Positions 4,649 to 27,205 of a DNA stretch of 64,000 nt are shown piece by piece. The notes under the pieces are model-generated. The model worked only from the letters and a program-made list of their open reading frames with translations, searched no databases and was not told the DNA's origin. Made by a program: the position numbers and the translations under genes. Numbering within the stretch: the stretch's first letter is position 1; each line of letters opens with the position of its first letter. Origin of the DNA: Flavobacteriales bacterium (lineage in GTDB: Bacteria > Bacteroidota > Bacteroidia > Flavobacteriales_F > PHOS-HE28); contig JAEUSY010000023.1 of the NCBI GenBank assembly GCA_016788295.1, positions 1 through 64,000 of the forward strand, read 5' to 3'.

Positions 4649-5752
4649 TCAGTTGCTTTCGCGGTCGATGAAACCACCTCCGATCACATCGTCCCCATCA
4701 TAGAAGACGGCGCTCTGCCCCGGAGCGATGCCTGCCACTGGAGCATGGAACTCAACATGCACACGCTCACCGTCCATGTTCAGGGTGCCCGGTGTGCCTT
4801 TGTCCTTATAGCGGATCTTGGTAACGGCTTCCATCTCCCCATTCAACGCGCTGATCTTCTGGAAGTTCGGCTTGCGCACCCACATGGAGACCTTGTTCAG
4901 GTCATCCTTGCGCCCCAGCACCACGGTATTGGTCTCGGGACGGATGTCGGTGACATAGAGCGGCTCGCCGGTGGCAATACCGAGGCCTTTCCGCTGGCCA
5001 ATGGTGAAGAAGGGGTAGCCATCATGCTCGCCCAGCACCATGCCATCGGTGCCCACGAGCTTTCCGTGTGCCAATTGCGCGGTGGCCTCCGGCTCCTTCC
5101 GTTTCAGGAAACCCCGGTAGTCGTTGTCGGGTATGAAGCAGATCTCGTAGCTCTCGCTCTTGGTGGCCAGTTCGGGAAAACCGCTGTCCATGGCCATTTG
5201 CCGGATCTCGCTCTTGCGGAAACCACCAATGGGGAAGCGCGTCCGGGCCAGGTTCTTTTGTTCAAGTCCCCAAAGCACATAGCTCTGGTCCTTGCCGGGA
5301 TCGAGCCCCCGGCTGACCACCCAGCGCCCATTCTCCTCCAATTGGCGGACCCGGGCATAGTGCCCAGTGGCGATCAGCTCGCAGTCCATCATGTCGGCCC
5401 GTTTGAGCAAGGCCTCCCACTTGATGAAGGTATTGCACAGTACACAGGGATTGGGCGTGCGGCCGGCCAGGTACTCACTGGTGAAATTGCCGATGATGGC
5501 ATCGCCGAACTCCTCGCGGATGTCGATGATCATGTGGTGGAACCCTCGGCTCACCGCCATGTTCCGGGCATCGTTGATGCTGTCCAGGTCGCAGCATCCG
5601 GTAACGCGCTTGCCTCCGCTGGCATCGGCATAGTCCCAGGTCTTCATGGTCACGCCGATCACCTCGTACCCCTGCTCATGCAGCATCAATGCGGTAACGG
5701 AGCTGTCCACACCGCCGCTCATGGCCACCAAGATCCTTCCGTGCTTGCTCAT
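4649..5752 (-). CDS. mnmA: tRNA-specific 2-thiouridylase MnmA
   Basis: Forms 2-thiouridine at position 34 of tRNA-Lys, Glu and Gln. The PP-loop ATPase motif SGGVDSS lies at residues 10-16. The first catalytic cysteine sits in 'NPCVLCN' and the second in 'SYEICFIPD'. 'GQRKGLGIATGEPLYVT' and the C-terminal 'GQSAVFYDGDDVIGGG' are also typical. The frame runs upstream to 5818, but MSKHGRILVAMSGG at 5752 is the natural start and gives 367 residues, the usual length. It heads a packed minus-strand run with a lipoprotein, a protease, aat and a DUF2141 gene. Confidence 0.95.
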   Translation of the reverse strand: MSKHGRILVAMSGGVDSSVTALMLHEQGYEVIGVTMKTWDYADASGGKRVTGCCDLDSINDARNMAVSRGFHHMIIDIREEFGDAIIGNFTSEYLAGRTPNPCVLCNTFIKWEALLKRADMMDCELIATGHYARVRQLEENGRWVVSRGLDPGKDQSYVLWGLEQKNLARTRFPIGGFRKSEIRQMAMDSGFPELATKSESYEICFIPDNDYRGFLKRKEPEATAQLAHGKLVGTDGMVLGEHDGYPFFTIGQRKGLGIATGEPLYVTDIRPETNTVVLGRKDDLNKVSMWVRKPNFQKISALNGEMEAVTKIRYKDKGTPGTLNMDGERVHVEFHAPVAGIAPGQSAVFYDGDDVIGGGFIDRESN

Positions 5753-5854
5753 TCCATATCCTGATTTCACAAGGTAGTTGGCCGAGCTTAATGTTGATCG
5801 CCAACTGCCGACCTCCAACTTCCTGTCCGCCTCCCAATTGATCGCTCCCCTCCG

Positions 5855-6856
5855 CTATCGCTGCTCCACACCGCCCACATAGCGGGTCACCTTCACCAGT
5901 TTGCCCTTCTCGTCATACTCCTTCACCTCCCCCTCCAGCAGATCATTAACGTAGGTGCCTTCCCGCTTTTTGGTCTGCCCTTCCAATACGCGCTGAATAT
6001 CCGCCGGAGTGCCCATATTGGGGTCCGCGGGTACCGGCTTCATCAACCATGTCCCATTGTCGAAATACTCCGTGAACTTCCCTTCGCGCTTGCCCTTCAC
6101 GTAGGTCACTTCGCTCATGAGCTGCTCGTCGTCGTAGTATTCCTTGAAGGTGCCGTTCTCCTTTCGCTCCTTCACCATGGTCCCACGGGCATAGAGCACC
6201 TGCAGTTGAATGGTACCATCGGCATTGAAGTAATACCACACGCCGTCGCGGTCCCCGTTCACCACCTGCCCTTCGATCTCCTTCTTGCCACTGGGGAAAT
6301 AGAACGTCATGCGTCCCTCGGGCTGGCCTTTCACGTAGTTCGCCTCGCTCTTCAAGGTGCCGTTATCGAACCAGCTCTTCATTTCGCCATGAAGCTCGCC
6401 ATCCACACGGTGCTCACGCTCCGCCAATTGACCATTGGGGTAATAGGTGATCTGCTCGCCGTGCAGGGTGCCCACCTTGAAGCGCTCCACCTTACGCAGT
6501 TTGCCATCGGCCGAATAGTAGTTCCACGTGCTGTCCTTGGTCTGCCCTACGTACTTACCTGCCGCCATTAGCGCACCATTGGGGTGGAAGTGTTCGGCCC
6601 GGCTCACCTTTCCATCTCCGGCGTGGCGCTGGATCGATGTGAGCTTGCCATTCTCGTCCCAGTGCTTGAAGGTGCCCACAGGCTTGTCGTCCGTGAACTG
6701 GCCTTGGTAGCGCACCTTACCGTTCGGCCACGTTTTGGACCATGCGCCCTGCTTGCGCCCCTTGGCATCGGTGGAATTGGAGGCCGCGGGCGGTTGCGCG
6801 AAGGTGAGCGCTGTGAACAGCACCGCGAAAAGGGTGAGAAGGATGCGCTGGAGCAT
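5855..6856 (-). CDS. YwqK/MORN-variant repeat protein, secreted
   Basis: 333 residues with a signal peptide ([21 protein letters not shown]). The rest consists of about ten ~23-residue repeats of the form 'G.W..Y..nGk....y..G...G' (for example [42 protein letters not shown]), characteristic of the MORN-variant/YwqK family. Proteins of this type are abundant in Bacteroidota; the antitoxin label attached to YwqK is not supported here by any toxin partner. Start chosen at 6856 because a TACTTTTG -7 element lies at 6864-6871, which excludes the longer upstream reading frame. Confidence 0.85.
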
Positions 6857-6863
6857 GTGTGTG

Positions 6864-6871
6864 CAAAAGTA
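6864..6871 (-). promoter_or_regulatory. -7 element TACTTTTG of the YwqK-like gene
   Basis: On the minus strand TACTTTTG matches the Bacteroidota -7 consensus and ends 7 nt before the ATG at 6856. Such spacing implies a very short or absent 5' leader. No convincing -33 TTTG at the standard distance was found. Confidence 0.55.
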
Positions 6872-6919
6872 CGCCACGCCTGCAAGGGCCATGCCCAATG
6901 CCAGGTACCCGTGGCGGGT

Positions 6920-6927
6920 TACCTTTG
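6920..6927 (+). promoter_or_regulatory. -7 element TACCTTTG of the transaldolase gene
   Basis: TACCTTTG matches the TAnnTTTG consensus 17 nt upstream of the transaldolase ATG (6945). It lies back to back with the promoter of the divergent YwqK-like gene. Confidence 0.55.
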
Positions 6928-6944
6928 CAGCCAGCAGCACGACC

Positions 6945-7613
6945 ATGAAATTCTTCATCGACACGGCCAGCCTGGCCCAGATCAAGGAAGCGCAGGACCT
7001 CGGTGTCCTGGACGGCGTAACCACCAACCCCTCGTTGATGGCCAAGGAAGGCATCAGTGGCCACGACCGGGTAATGAAGCATTACGTGGACATCTGCAAC
7101 ATCGTGGACGGCGATGTGAGCGCCGAGGTGATCGCCACGGACTACGCTGGAATGATCAAAGAGGGCGAGGACCTGGCCGCATTGCACCCGAACATCGTGG
7201 TGAAAGTGCCCATGACCCGCGATGGCGTTAAGGCGATCAAGTACTTCACCGGCAAGGGCATTAAAACCAATTGCACGCTGGTGTTCAGCGCTGGGCAGGC
7301 CTTGTTGGCCGCCAAGGCCGGAGCCACCTACGTATCGCCTTTCGTGGGCCGCTTGGATGATGTGAGCACTGACGGTGTGCAGTTGATCGAGCAGATCCGG
7401 GTGATCTACGACAACTACGGCTACGGCACCGAGATCCTGGCCGCGAGCATCCGCCACCCCATGCACATCATCCAGTGCGCCGAAGTGGGTGCCGATGTGG
7501 CCACCTGTCCGCTCAGCGCCATCACGGCCCTGTTCGACCACCCCCTCACAACCATTGGGCTGGAGAAGTTCCTGGCCGACCACAAGAAGGCCGCTACGGC
7601 GGTGAAGGCCTGA
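6945..7613 (+). CDS. Transaldolase, TalC/FSA type
   Basis: 222 residues beginning [16 protein letters not shown] and containing GVTTNPSL, the Schiff-base region '[16 protein letters not shown]' and '[31 protein letters not shown]'. These mark the short (TalC/fructose-6-phosphate aldolase-like) transaldolases, which act in the non-oxidative pentose phosphate pathway. The late GADVAT segment and '[17 protein letters not shown]' tail are complete. ATG at 6945 was chosen because the family starts exactly with M(K/R)FF(I/L)DTA; the frame is open further upstream. It runs into the YciO/Sua5 gene after 7 bp. Confidence 0.94.
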
Positions 7614-7620
7614 CCACGGC

Positions 7621-8241
7621 ATGCTGCTGAGCATCCATCCCAAGGACCCCGAGCCGCGGAAGATCCGCATCGCGGTGGAGAAGCTCAACGCCGGTGGAGT
7701 GATCATCTGCCCCACCGACACGGTGTATGCCTTCGTATGCAGCGCCCACCAGCCACGCGCCATTGAACAGGTGGCCAAGTTGAAGGGAGCCAAGCCGAAC
7801 AAGGCCGACCTCTCGTTGATCTGCAACGACCTGAGCCAGTTGAGCACCTACGCCAGGGCCGTGGATACCGCGGCTTTCCGGATCATGAAGCGTGCGCTGC
7901 CCGGACCATACACCTTCATCCTGCCGGCCAGCAGCGAGATCCCCAAGTTGTTCAAGAACAACAAGCGCACGGTGGGTATCCGCGTACCGGACCACCCGAT
8001 ACCGCAAGCCATTGTGGCCGAACTGGGCCACGCCTTGGTGGTGACAAGCGTACACGACCCCGACAAAGTGGTGGACTACACCACCGACCCGGAACGGATC
8101 GATGAACACCTGGGCTATCAGGTGGACCTGGTGATCGATGGAGGTATCGGCGGGCTGGAGGGATCCACGGTGATCGACCTGAGCCAGGGTGAACCCGTGA
8201 TCCTGCGCGAAGGCAAAGGCCCAGTGGAAGACCTCCTCTGA
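7621..8241 (+). CDS. L-threonylcarbamoyladenylate synthase family protein (YciO/Sua5/YrdC)
   Basis: 206 residues of the YrdC fold: 'GGVIICPTDTVYAFVC', 'KGAKPNKADLSLICNDLSQLSTYA', 'LPGPYTFILPAS' and 'KRTVGIRVPDHPIPQAIV'. The family makes threonylcarbamoyl-AMP, the precursor for t6A37 of ANN-decoding tRNAs. The replacement of the usual KxR region by 'KPNKADLS' and the total length point to the YciO branch, whose cellular role is less clear than TsaC/Sua5. It follows the transaldolase closely and probably shares its transcript. The stop abuts the convergent nnr gene. Confidence 0.88.
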   Translation: MLLSIHPKDPEPRKIRIAVEKLNAGGVIICPTDTVYAFVCSAHQPRAIEQVAKLKGAKPNKADLSLICNDLSQLSTYARAVDTAAFRIMKRALPGPYTFILPASSEIPKLFKNNKRTVGIRVPDHPIPQAIVAELGHALVVTSVHDPDKVVDYTTDPERIDEHLGYQVDLVIDGGIGGLEGSTVIDLSQGEPVILREGKGPVEDLL

Positions 8242-24606: not shown

Positions 24607-24678
24607 AGCCTCCTTTCGGATTTGAACCGAAGACCTGCTCATTACGAATGAGCTGCTCTACCGCTGAGCTAAGGAGGC
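24607..24678 (-). tRNA. tRNA-Thr (anticodon CGT)
   Basis: The minus strand folds into a full cloverleaf: acceptor GCCTCCT/AGGAGGC, D stem GCTC/GAGC, anticodon stem GCTCA/TGAGC with loop TTCGTAA, and T arm TTCGG-TTCAAAT-CCGAA. The anticodon CGT reads ACG (Thr). The discriminator base is T and no CCA is encoded, so CCA must be added after transcription. Promoter elements lie at 24713-24746 and a terminator follows at 24576-24603. Confidence 0.95.
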
Positions 24679-24750: not shown

Positions 24751-26037
24751 TCAGCCCTTGGTGAAGCGGAGGGTGCCCTGGCCTTGCACCTGCACCGTAT
24801 AGACACCGTTCTGTAACGCGGCAATGTCAAGCTGCACAATGCCTTCAACGTTCACACTGGCGCGCTCCAAGACCACACGGCCCATGCTGTCGAACACACG
24901 TATTTGAGCGCCTTGGAGCACTCCTGAAAGTGCCACGGTCTCACTGGCCGGGTTCGGATAGAGGCCCAGCACTGGACGCTGCTGTGAGCTCACCGAAGTG
25001 CTCAAGCGAATGTCCATAGCGAGGTTGCCGGGTGAGACACCCACGGCAACTGTGGACAGCACATTGCCCTCCAGGTCCATGACATGCAGATCGCCCGTGG
25101 AAAAGAAGTCGGTGGTGGTGGCATAAAGCACCCCGTTCACTGGGTCCTCAATGAGCCCGTACACCGCTGGGCTACCAGCTAGCGTATCGGCCACCACGCC
25201 ATTGTTCAGGTCGAACCGGGCCAGTTCGTTCTGTGCATACTCCATGTAGTACACACGTCCGTTGGCACCCACCTTGGCCGAAGCGGCGCAGCTCGAATTC
25301 GCTGACACGTTGGTCGTGTAGGCGATCGTCCCTGAGGAAACATTCACCCGACTGATGCTGCTGTGCGAGAAGTCGGTGTTATTGAAGGCAATGATGTCGC
25401 CTTCGTGCTCCATGAGCTTTTCGGGATTGGTACCTTCCGGGCCAAGGTCAACCTCGGCGCCATAGGTACCAGTAAGAAGATCGACCACACCGACACGGCC
25501 CACGAAATTGCCCCACTCGAAGGCATTGCCCACGGCCAGGTAAGCCTTGTCGCCCACCACTAGAACATCCTCCGCAGCGAACTGCAGGCCGTCCGCCGGT
25601 GTGATGGTGTATTGAAGGTCCAGTGTGTTCCGGTCACGTACTTCGAAGTAGTGCGGCAGTCCACCAAGCTCACCGCGAGTGATCAGCAGCTGGCCGTTCC
25701 ACACGGCCAGTTTGCGCGCGCCTTGAACCATGGCTTCGCCGGTCTGTTGATAGGTGTCGGCATCAAATCGAAGTACACGGTCATCGGCGGCCACATAGAT
25801 GTCACCACCGTCCACCAGCACATCGCTACCGAAGCGGGGGCCGGTAATGGTGGCAACTGTCTGGTAGATACCGGTAGTGGGATCATAACTACCCAGCGTT
25901 ACCGGCACCAACTGGCCCTGGCCATTGAAGTAGTCGTAATAACCTTCATTGAGCACCACCACTTGATTTACGGTGGATTGTGCGCCAACGTGCAGCGCGA
26001 GGGCCATCAGGCCCGCTGAGAGTACTGAACGGTACAT
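24751..26037 (-). CDS. Secreted beta-propeller protein with T9SS sorting domain, BtuG-like, under a cobalamin riboswitch
   Basis: 428 residues. Signal peptide MYRSVLSAGLMALALHVGAQ. The mature protein starts 'VNQVVVLNEGYYDYFNGQGQ' and continues with propeller blades ('DVLVDGGDIYVAADDRVLRFDADTYQ', 'KLAVWNGQLLITRGELGG', 'GANGRVYYMEYAQNELARFDLNNG'), matching the DUF5074/YncE-like type with its VLNEG opening. Residues from about 350 (VLGLYPNPASETVALSG...) form a T9SS type A sorting domain. The leader holds a clear cobalamin riboswitch. In Bacteroides a beta-propeller of this class, BtuG, captures vitamin B12 at the cell surface as a lipoprotein; here the T9SS would place it there instead. B12 binding is inference from fold plus riboswitch. 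Confidence 0.85.
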   Translation of the reverse strand: MYRSVLSAGLMALALHVGAQSTVNQVVVLNEGYYDYFNGQGQLVPVTLGSYDPTTGIYQTVATITGPRFGSDVLVDGGDIYVAADDRVLRFDADTYQQTGEAMVQGARKLAVWNGQLLITRGELGGLPHYFEVRDRNTLDLQYTITPADGLQFAAEDVLVVGDKAYLAVGNAFEWGNFVGRVGVVDLLTGTYGAEVDLGPEGTNPEKLMEHEGDIIAFNNTDFSHSSISRVNVSSGTIAYTTNVSANSSCAASAKVGANGRVYYMEYAQNELARFDLNNGVVADTLAGSPAVYGLIEDPVNGVLYATTTDFFSTGDLHVMDLEGNVLSTVAVGVSPGNLAMDIRLSTSVSSQQRPVLGLYPNPASETVALSGVLQGAQIRVFDSMGRVVLERASVNVEGIVQLDIAALQNGVYTVQVQGQGTLRFTKG

Positions 26038-26179
26038 GGAAAAAAGGATTTAGTTGCCGCGTTCACCGCACGGCGTTAACGAAGTGAAACCCTGGGTTGA
26101 GCGGAAGGCCTGTACCGCAAGCCCTCTACCCTTTCCCAGGGCCGAGATCAACGGACCCGGATGAATAACCCGGGCCGCG

Positions 26180-26362
26180 TGGTGGCAGGTCTTCTGGCTT
26201 ACCGCCCTACCTGTTGCGCCTTCCCGAGGCCCCAAAGGGCATCAGTGGCATTCGGCAACAGGCGTCAGCGGCTTACAGCTGCGGGAACAGCTCCCGGTTC
26301 GCACGGGATTCCCTCTTCACCTTTGGGAAAGCGCCCTTCGATCACTCCCGGGGCACCTCTCA
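26180..26362 (-). ncRNA. Cobalamin (vitamin B12) riboswitch
   Basis: Read on the minus strand, the conserved blocks occur in order: GAGGTGCC at the 5' stem, GAGGGAATCCCGTGCGAA, CGGGAGCTGTTCCCGC, the core GCCACTG (near 26245), CGGGAAGGCGC and finally AGCCAGAAGACCTGCC near 26181. This is the textbook B12-box architecture. It lies about 140 nt upstream of the T9SS beta-propeller ATG, with a CCCTGGG/CCCAGGG stem (about 26138 and 26091) and a T-run at 26038-26044 between, which may be the expression platform. It should shut the gene off when cobalamin is plentiful. Confidence 0.95.
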
Positions 26363-26444
26363 TCGGCTCGTTCGCACCATGGTCCAGATCGAGACTTGGA
26401 AAATGGTACAAGACCACTACGCGCAGCGAATGTAGCAGGCCCGA

Positions 26445-27095
26445 TCAGAACCGGAACGCGAGAGACAGTTGCGCACCCAGGCCGCGGGTGCGAAGGGTGG
26501 CCTCGTAGCCACTGAGATCCACACTGGCTCCGTTCAGTTCATAGGCCCTTAGCGGCATGTTGGTGGTCATGTAGCGAAGCTGGAACTGCAAGGCCAGCAG
26601 GTCGCCGAGGCCAAAGGCGACACCCGTGCTCAATCCGAAGTTGCCCCCGCTGTACCGCGCATCGGTGGACACGAGCGCTTCAGAGCGTTCGATCCGTAAA
26701 GCAGATACCCCTAAAAGCACCGAAGCCATCCAAGCGAAACGGTCGTTATTCACCAGGTAGATACGGGGCTGAAGGCCTGCCAACAGGATCGCGTTGGACT
26801 CCGTAGCACTGGAGTCGAGGTAGGAACCAGGTTCCACATAGATACCGAGCGCAAAGCCCTTGGAAAGCCCAAAACCCAGCTCAAAGGGGAAGGTCACCGA
26901 AGCGGCACCATCGTCATTTGTATCGCTCAACCACTGCCCCAGGACCAATAAACGCTGCTCGTATTCGGTGGCATGGCCCGCAGCATGCACACCGAGCGAA
27001 AGGTGGAAGGTGCCCTTCCCGTTCATCTGGGCGGAAGCAGAGATCGGTGCGAACAGGAACTGGGCGGTGAGCAGAAGTAGGGACGGAACTCGCAT
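26445..27095 (-). CDS. Outer-membrane beta-barrel protein
   Basis: 216 residues. Signal peptide MRVPSLLLLTAQFLFAPISASAQ. The mature part is a series of alternating amphipathic strands ('FELGFGLSKGFALGIYVEPGSY', 'NFGLSTGVAFGLGDLLALQFQLRYM') ending in 'LRTRGLGAQLSLAFRF', with the terminal aromatic Phe typical of outer-membrane barrels. No specific family was recognised. ATG at 27095 is preferred over a TTG at 27119. It lies upstream of the cobalamin riboswitch on the same strand, but the riboswitch is downstream of this gene, so B12 should not control it. Confidence 0.75.
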   Translation of the reverse strand: MRVPSLLLLTAQFLFAPISASAQMNGKGTFHLSLGVHAAGHATEYEQRLLVLGQWLSDTNDDGAASVTFPFELGFGLSKGFALGIYVEPGSYLDSSATESNAILLAGLQPRIYLVNNDRFAWMASVLLGVSALRIERSEALVSTDARYSGGNFGLSTGVAFGLGDLLALQFQLRYMTTNMPLRAYELNGASVDLSGYEATLRTRGLGAQLSLAFRF

Positions 27096-27205
27096 GATCG
27101 GAGATGACTTGCCGAGCAAGATAACAGCGGCAAGCCCCGATCAGGAACCCAAGAAAAAGACAGGCCTGACAGTCATCGGCACTTTACAGCGGAATGAGAT
27201 GATCC

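Follow-up and report, generated by a model that had tools for sequence, protein, structure and literature searches.

A riboswitch-linked, BtuG-like beta-propeller with a T9SS sorting domain that does not co-occur with BtuB in a genus of Flavobacteriales

In gut Bacteroides, BtuG is a lipoprotein that forms the lid of BtuB. BtuG homologs have been described as linked to btuB operons and predicted to be lipoproteins of the cell surface (PMC6143338, in part), and a cobalamin riboswitch has been reported before a TonB-dependent receptor gene in F. psychrophilum (PMC9723704, in part). Additional riboswitch-controlled surface or vesicle B12 binders are known from Bacteroides, namely BtuH, BtuJ (DUF4465) and BtuK (PMC8941943, PMC12751083 and PMC13398666, each in part). 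Within the available text of the open-licence PMC literature, neither a T9SS cargo described as a B12 binder nor a report of a BtuG-like protein replacing BtuB-BtuG was found.

The locus described here lies in a window of 64,000 nucleotides from a Flavobacteriales bacterium (assembly GCA_016788295.1, contig JAEUSY010000023.1, positions 1 to 64,000) and consists of a cobalamin riboswitch followed by a single beta-propeller gene (Table 1). The encoded protein is similar to BtuG (BtuG1, BtuG2 and BtuG3 of B. thetaiotaomicron, PDB 8bmy, 8okv and 8ptf; 3dsm of B. uniformis) in fold over the whole body, in the NEG motif of the ligand-gripping loop and in control by a cobalamin riboswitch. It differs in its low sequence identity and in its export signals, with a T9SS tail but no lipobox, and whereas btuG stands beside btuB in a riboswitch operon, the window propeller is a single gene with a riboswitch but no btuB. 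BtuB-BtuG complex operons with the same regulator are present in sister species of the genus; here their place is taken by a single-gene cassette that occupies a different chromosomal site and contains no receptor gene. BtuH, BtuJ and BtuK, unlike the window propeller, are lipoproteins and occur in species that have BtuB. The folds of BtuH and BtuJ are different, and BtuK1 (9s6c) appeared only at rank 26 in a Foldseek search with the propeller model. The locus is probably a single-gene, B12-repressed capture cassette that does the job performed in sister species by the BtuB-BtuG operon, its product being a putative corrinoid-capture protein that would have taken over that job.

Table 1. Positions of the riboswitch, the propeller gene and its parts, and the edges of the cassette site in the window
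Feature	Position	Strand	Basis
tRNA gene, one edge of cassette site (context)	24607..24678	-	Rfam tRNA
T9SS-routed BtuG-like beta-propeller gene (predicted), 428 aa, ATG	24751..26037	-	ORF, fold, homologs behind riboswitch in relatives
T9SS type A C-terminal sorting domain, residues 359–421	24775..24963	-	PF18962, TIGR04183
Propeller body, residues 21–345, NEG motif 30–32	25003..25977	-	VIA-align spans model residues 21–344 on BtuG
N-terminal signal sequence, codons 1–20, ending LHVGAQ; no Cys in residues 1–45	25978..26037	-	Sequence, Cys/lipobox scan; cleavage site by eye
Leader, aptamer to start codon; presumed expression platform, stable hairpins before ATG	26038..26166	-	RNA fold
Cobalamin riboswitch aptamer, complete	26167..26375	-	RF00174
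224-aa ORF, other edge of cassette site (context)	26445..27119	-	Kept at empty site in L209, L210 and L212

A preliminary description of this DNA had placed a B12 riboswitch with all its conserved blocks in the leader of the propeller gene. Scanning of the 64 kb window with Rfam bore this out: RF00174 matched at 94.2 bits (gathering cut-off 31.5, E 3.9e-22) with model positions 1–189 of 189 aligned, and Rfam matched nothing else in the window except a tRNA. No further cobalamin riboswitch was found in the genome (3.78 Mb in 61 contigs, 96 % complete). The aptamer ends 130 nt from the start of the propeller gene. The RNA fold of 26020–26180 had a free energy of −64.4 kcal/mol (z −2.87 relative to shuffles); no intrinsic terminator was called in the leader, and the terminator scan gave two sites against 2.1 expected from shuffles. 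In 22 genomes of the genus for which both coordinates were listed, the riboswitch lies 98–132 nt from the propeller gene, and because the order and spacing recur the arrangement is more than chance. This conserved order, together with the upstream 224-aa ORF ending before the riboswitch on the same strand, led to rejection of the possibility that the riboswitch serves another unit. Judging by this arrangement, the riboswitch would repress the propeller gene at high B12.

The protein had been called a VLNEG-type beta-propeller. Its body contains VVLNEG, and an AlphaFold2 model (pLDDT 85.6, pTM 0.73) has a predicted BtuG-type beta-propeller fold; no Pfam propeller family scored above cut-off for the 428-aa protein. 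A structural comparison with BtuG, which the preliminary description had proposed, placed BtuG at the top in two methods. Ranks 1–14 of Foldseek against the PDB were all BtuG-type entries, as were ranks 1–10 of VIA-align, where the best match was 8blw_B (Z 34.6, 2.1 Å over 299 residues) and the best non-BtuG entry was 1l0q (Z 31.4). Because other propellers score not far behind BtuG, the fold of a predicted model is no proof of function by itself.

Kinship at the sequence level is distant. A single-sequence phmmer search of the PDB returned no BtuG at E≤10; its matches were mostly designed kelch-like propellers (SAKe), attributed to repeat composition, and a T9SS tail, and were set aside as low in information. 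BLASTP of the window protein against the BtuG2 chain gave 20 % identity with an E value, for this single comparison, of 6e-4, and the published cut-off for BtuG (BLASTP E 1e-10; PMC6143338, in part) was not reached. Profiles reached further. A profile of 16 propeller relatives (A1) found BtuG entries in the PDB at about 2e-8, while an alignment (A3) of 10 lipoprotein-like proteins drawn from BtuB operons in sister species and elsewhere matched solved BtuG at down to 5e-97, which identifies the A3 proteins by sequence as BtuG. In a profile-profile comparison, 293 columns of A1 and A3 aligned with a probability of 99.3 and an identity of 20 %. The label BtuG-like therefore holds for fold and for distant homology by profiles and fails at the BLASTP cut-off, and the window protein belongs to a T9SS-routed sister family of BtuG and is not itself a BtuG member.

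The ligand residues of BtuG2 have been given as the loop Asn54–Thr64, Trp194, Tyr239, Trp272, Tyr316 and Tyr335 (PMC10404256, in part). When BtuG2, A3 and A1 were aligned with MAFFT, Asn54-Glu55-Gly56 of BtuG2 fell opposite Asn30-Glu31-Gly32 of the window protein. Among the five named aromatics, only Tyr316 met an identical residue (Tyr293); Tyr335 and Tyr239 were aligned with Phe311 and Phe223, Trp272 with Ser249, and Trp194 with Gly176, the neighbour of Trp175, in a part of the alignment with many gaps. Asp334 of BtuG2 aligned with Asp310, and this position is Asp in 16 of 16 A1 members. Conservation of the B12 pocket in these aligned sequences is partial; by analogy, the propeller face would bind corrinoids as BtuG does. 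A partly conserved pocket also fits a surface propeller that is regulated by B12 without binding it and has another role when the vitamin is short, as does the occurrence of the propeller fold in enzymes and scaffolds, with non-BtuG entries scoring up to the Z value given above. We regard such a non-binding protein as quite improbable, given that BtuG entries alone led the rankings of Foldseek and VIA-align and that, as set out below, the gene excludes BtuB-BtuG and in four loci stands in an operon together with BtuF-BtuC-BtuD-like genes.

The preliminary description had contrasted the lipoprotein BtuG with a T9SS sorting domain at the end of this protein, and the sequence signals agree with it. 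The C-terminal tail scored above cut-off for both families, like that of a T9SS type A cargo (PF18962, E 2.3e-11, 44.3 bits against 27; TIGR04183, 38.1 bits against 23), and a PorU sortase is encoded in the same genome (NF033707, 1252 bits against 420). A T9SS tail was present in 16 of 16 A1 members and in 15 of 19 members of a further alignment (A7), which omits L148 and L159 (contig ends) as well as L169 and L170. In each of the 10 lipoprotein BtuG of A3 a Cys follows the hydrophobic stretch; the N-terminus of the window protein is hydrophobic as well but has no Cys in residues 1–45, and a lipobox at the signal end was absent from all 16 A1 members, as judged from their N-termini. The predicted export route differs from that of BtuG, and the protein would be secreted through T9SS. 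Release is one conceivable outcome, with a T9SS product that is shed or carried on vesicles and later recaptured as a B12-phore. The absence of a membrane anchor from the propeller sequence and of a carrier gene from the cassette are in keeping with this, and BtuJ vesicles of B. thetaiotaomicron are described as siderophore-like in action (PMC12751083, in part), but T9SS type A cargo is described as anchored to surface lipopolysaccharide (PMC9143113, in part). A released B12-phore overlaps with the capture cassette that we favour and, as an explanation of its own, seems unlikely.

As the preliminary description had stated, neither btuB nor any other B12 transport gene adjoins the propeller gene. 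Downstream are a tRNA gene and then an oppositely oriented gene for a DAO-family FAD oxidase, upstream is the 224-aa ORF, which has no Pfam match, and no receptor-like gene was recognised by length and N-terminus in the 64 kb window. The syntenic tRNA was tRNA-Thr(cgt) in nine of nine relatives' loci scanned, and one relative (G009, L218) has the gene order of the window, propeller included. An empty version of the site was found in four BtuB-bearing genomes (G038, G012, G042 and G041; L209–L212), which keep the neighbours (an EF-G-like gene, tRNA-Thr, the DAO oxidase, and TPR and TlpA-like genes) without the propeller and show no cobalamin riboswitch there at E≤0.1. A decayed cassette in G024, a genome with neither system, was considered and rejected: the site holds tRNA-Thr and an acetyltransferase-like ORF instead, the latter read by eye from a frame translation.

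The distribution of the propeller was compared with that of BtuB and BtuG across 147 genomes, comprising the source genome and its relatives, of which 45 belong to the genus. A cobalamin riboswitch was present in 132 of these genomes and a propeller match (E≤1e-50) in 33, with 24 in the genus and nine outside. BtuB, searched with a profile of the genus's riboswitch-linked BtuB (A2, E≤1e-30), was detected in 87 of 147 genomes and BtuG (A3, E≤1e-10) in 91; neither was detected at these cut-offs in any of the 33 propeller genomes. The cut-offs were strict (1e-30 for A2, 1e-10 for A3 and 1e-40 for A5), leaving weaker relatives uncounted. Within the genus (n=45), 24 genomes had the propeller, 17 had BtuB, none had both and four had neither (G001, G015, G024 and G030), and lipoprotein BtuG accompanied BtuB in 16 of the 17. 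That the propeller cassette and BtuB never co-occur in the 45 genomes is a new observation (Fisher P=5e-9 over 45 genomes, ignoring descent). This mutual exclusion among close relatives suggests that either system can stand in for the other. The preliminary description had read the locus as evidence that organisms using T9SS have evolved an alternative way of placing a B12 scavenger at the surface; a T9SS-tailed propeller is indeed found here, but the alternative is not general, with BtuB in 17 and BtuG in 16 of the 45 genus genomes.

Absence of BtuB and BtuG could arise from incomplete drafts, or presence of the propeller from a mis-binned contig, considering that the source genome comprises 61 contigs at 96 % completeness and that several genus genomes are 66–85 % complete. 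However, the 30 best genomes (at least 90 % complete, at most 5 % contaminated) gave the same picture, with the propeller in 16, BtuB in 13, both in none and neither in one (Fisher P=1e-7, ignoring descent). G010 is a single contig at 99 % completeness and G025 comprises seven contigs at 99 %, and relatives show the same succession of genes around the site, making an artefact very improbable. G024, which has neither system, is 99 % complete.

Exclusion in 45 genomes does not amount to 45 independent cases. A marker tree of the neighbouring EF-G-like gene, covering 31 genomes (30 loci and G023) and leaving 14 of the 45 genus genomes outside, requires five changes between propeller and BtuB among the 29 genomes with one or the other, and five remain when the long-branch genomes G035 and G011 are removed. 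Independent pairs separated by well-supported branches numbered two (four without the two long branches), all concordant (sign test P=0.5, or 0.125). Because such pairs are few, repeated swapping of the cassette and the BtuB-BtuG operon is indicated but not proved.

The BtuB operons of the genus showed a further feature. In 13 of 13 operons fetched (L088–L091, L093–L095 and L097–L102), the gene between the riboswitch and btuB matched the profile of a domain of about 130 aa (A6), which occurs twice in each of eight aligned members and has no Pfam family. The one member scanned for it, in L089, carries a T9SS tail. The model of the L091 member (6797–7906, minus strand) was weak (pLDDT 62.7); its 14 best rows in VIA-align were all C-terminal beta domains of transcobalamin, intrinsic factor or haptocorrin (best 2bb6_A, Z 11.1, 2.5 Å over 94 residues). 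Foldseek with the same model found nothing at E≤0.001, and a sequence-profile search of the PDB with A6 found no transcobalamin-type match. A 628-aa protein behind a second cobalamin riboswitch in L096 (G033) also matched the A6 profile (138 bits). On the strength of the weak model, the riboswitch-linked A6 protein is possibly a bacterial transcobalamin-like B12 binder.

Further propeller loci were collected by scanning named genomes with A4, an alignment closer than A1. This gave 39 loci, 37 with a strong match to the propeller profile, mostly from metagenome-assembled genomes titled Flavobacteriales, Chitinophagales, Saprospiraceae or Bacteroidetes, with one from Chlorobiota; the two samples overlap (L148 is G089:C118 and L150 is G109:C34). 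By Rfam, a riboswitch lies directly upstream of the propeller in 15 of the 21 loci L148–L168, the exceptions being L156, L160, L165, L166, L167 and L148, the last of which has the gene at the very start of its contig. Four loci (L152, L158, L161 and L168) have an operon of riboswitch, propeller, lipoprotein-like solute-binding protein, permease and ATPase. Pfam matches on representatives were Peripla_BP_2 (L161), FecCD (L168) and ABC_tran (L161), a composition that is BtuF-BtuC-BtuD-like by sequence; none of the four operons contains an outer-membrane receptor gene. Association with these operons and exclusion of BtuB-BtuG support a putative B12 role for the propeller.

Outside the genus, a distant T9SS propeller and BtuB share one riboswitch operon in four loci, L103, L104, L106 and L107, and three of these operons (L103, L106 and L107) encode lipoprotein BtuG as well. 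In view of these combinations, the reading of the T9SS form as the usual solution in organisms with T9SS must be narrowed. Because the two forms coexist in L103, L106 and L107, the T9SS form is not merely BtuG with another anchor. The L106 operon also includes a second T9SS-tail protein (5820–6809, minus strand; G074) with no other Pfam family. In L105 (1390–4245; G045), a 952-aa riboswitch-linked protein shows matches to the propeller profile in three stretches, together with two Big_9/cadherin-like stretches and a T9SS tail.

The source genome encodes a cobalamin adenosyltransferase (PF01923, E 1.1e-62) and has two PF02310 (B12-binding-domain) matches, on which grounds the possibility that the organism does not use B12 was rejected. 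Neither BtuB (no A2 match at E≤1e-30) nor BtuG (no A3 match at E≤1e-10) was found in it. A FecCD permease is present in 39 of 45 genus genomes and was not found at E≤0.001 in the source genome (G000), G009, G015, G022, G030 and G040; an A5-type BtuF was not found at E≤1e-40 in the source genome and its near relative G009. With neither the permease nor an A5-type BtuF found at these cut-offs, the inner-membrane step is unaccounted for in these two. G009, like the source genome, combines adenosyltransferase and B12-binding-domain matches with the absence of a FecCD permease.

Outer-membrane receptors bear on a second reading, in which the corrinoid-binding propeller serves as the lid of a dedicated TonB-dependent receptor that in this genus is unlinked and outside riboswitch control, in the way that BtuG acts as a lid on BtuB (PMC10404256, in part). 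TIGR01779 reached TonB-dependent receptors in all but one of the 147 genomes, the source genome weakly (best 1.2e-20). A second kind of TonB-dependent receptor, of about 720–830 aa, was seen directly behind cobalamin riboswitches in G050, G058, G088, G101 and G126. It was seen in genomes of other families and is missed by the A2 profile, and for this reason an unlinked receptor of the second kind in the source genome is possible. Near the cassette, L159 has an 818-aa receptor (5249–7702), with a plug and a barrel according to Pfam, whose gene stops immediately short of the riboswitch, and about 1.5–2 kb upstream there is a 785-aa ORF in L152 (3638–5995) and a 791-aa ORF in L168 (3810–6182; plug and barrel by Pfam). 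These may be candidate partners or chance neighbours. Such closeness favours a lid, but it was seen in only three of 20 mapped loci and may be chance, and neither the window nor the BtuF-BtuC-BtuD-like operons contained a recognisable receptor-like gene. A lid of this kind, which overlaps with the favoured reading, is on balance rather unlikely; if it were correct, the novelty would be confined to export route and gene order.

Under the favoured reading of a B12-repressed capture cassette, scarcity of B12 would cause the riboswitch to permit expression of the propeller, which T9SS would move across the outer membrane for anchoring at the surface or release. The propeller face would then catch a corrinoid as BtuG does, and the vitamin would be passed to an outer-membrane carrier encoded elsewhere. 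The fuller proposal is a B12 route without BtuB and BtuG, in which a riboswitch-controlled T9SS propeller, at the surface or as a released B12-phore, works with a carrier that is not recognisably BtuB, has been swapped several times with the BtuB-BtuG operon and is wired to BtuF-BtuC-BtuD-like genes in Chitinophagales-type loci; as a whole this is tentative and falls somewhat short of an even chance. Because paired species carry one system or the other and the site is defined, the two systems could be exchanged directly as a test. If the propeller binds B12, it would represent a second, unrecognised solution to outer-membrane uptake in environmental Bacteroidota, the cassette would be overlooked wherever B12 uptake is predicted from btuB in genomes, and T9SS would gain a role in nutrient capture under the control of a vitamin.
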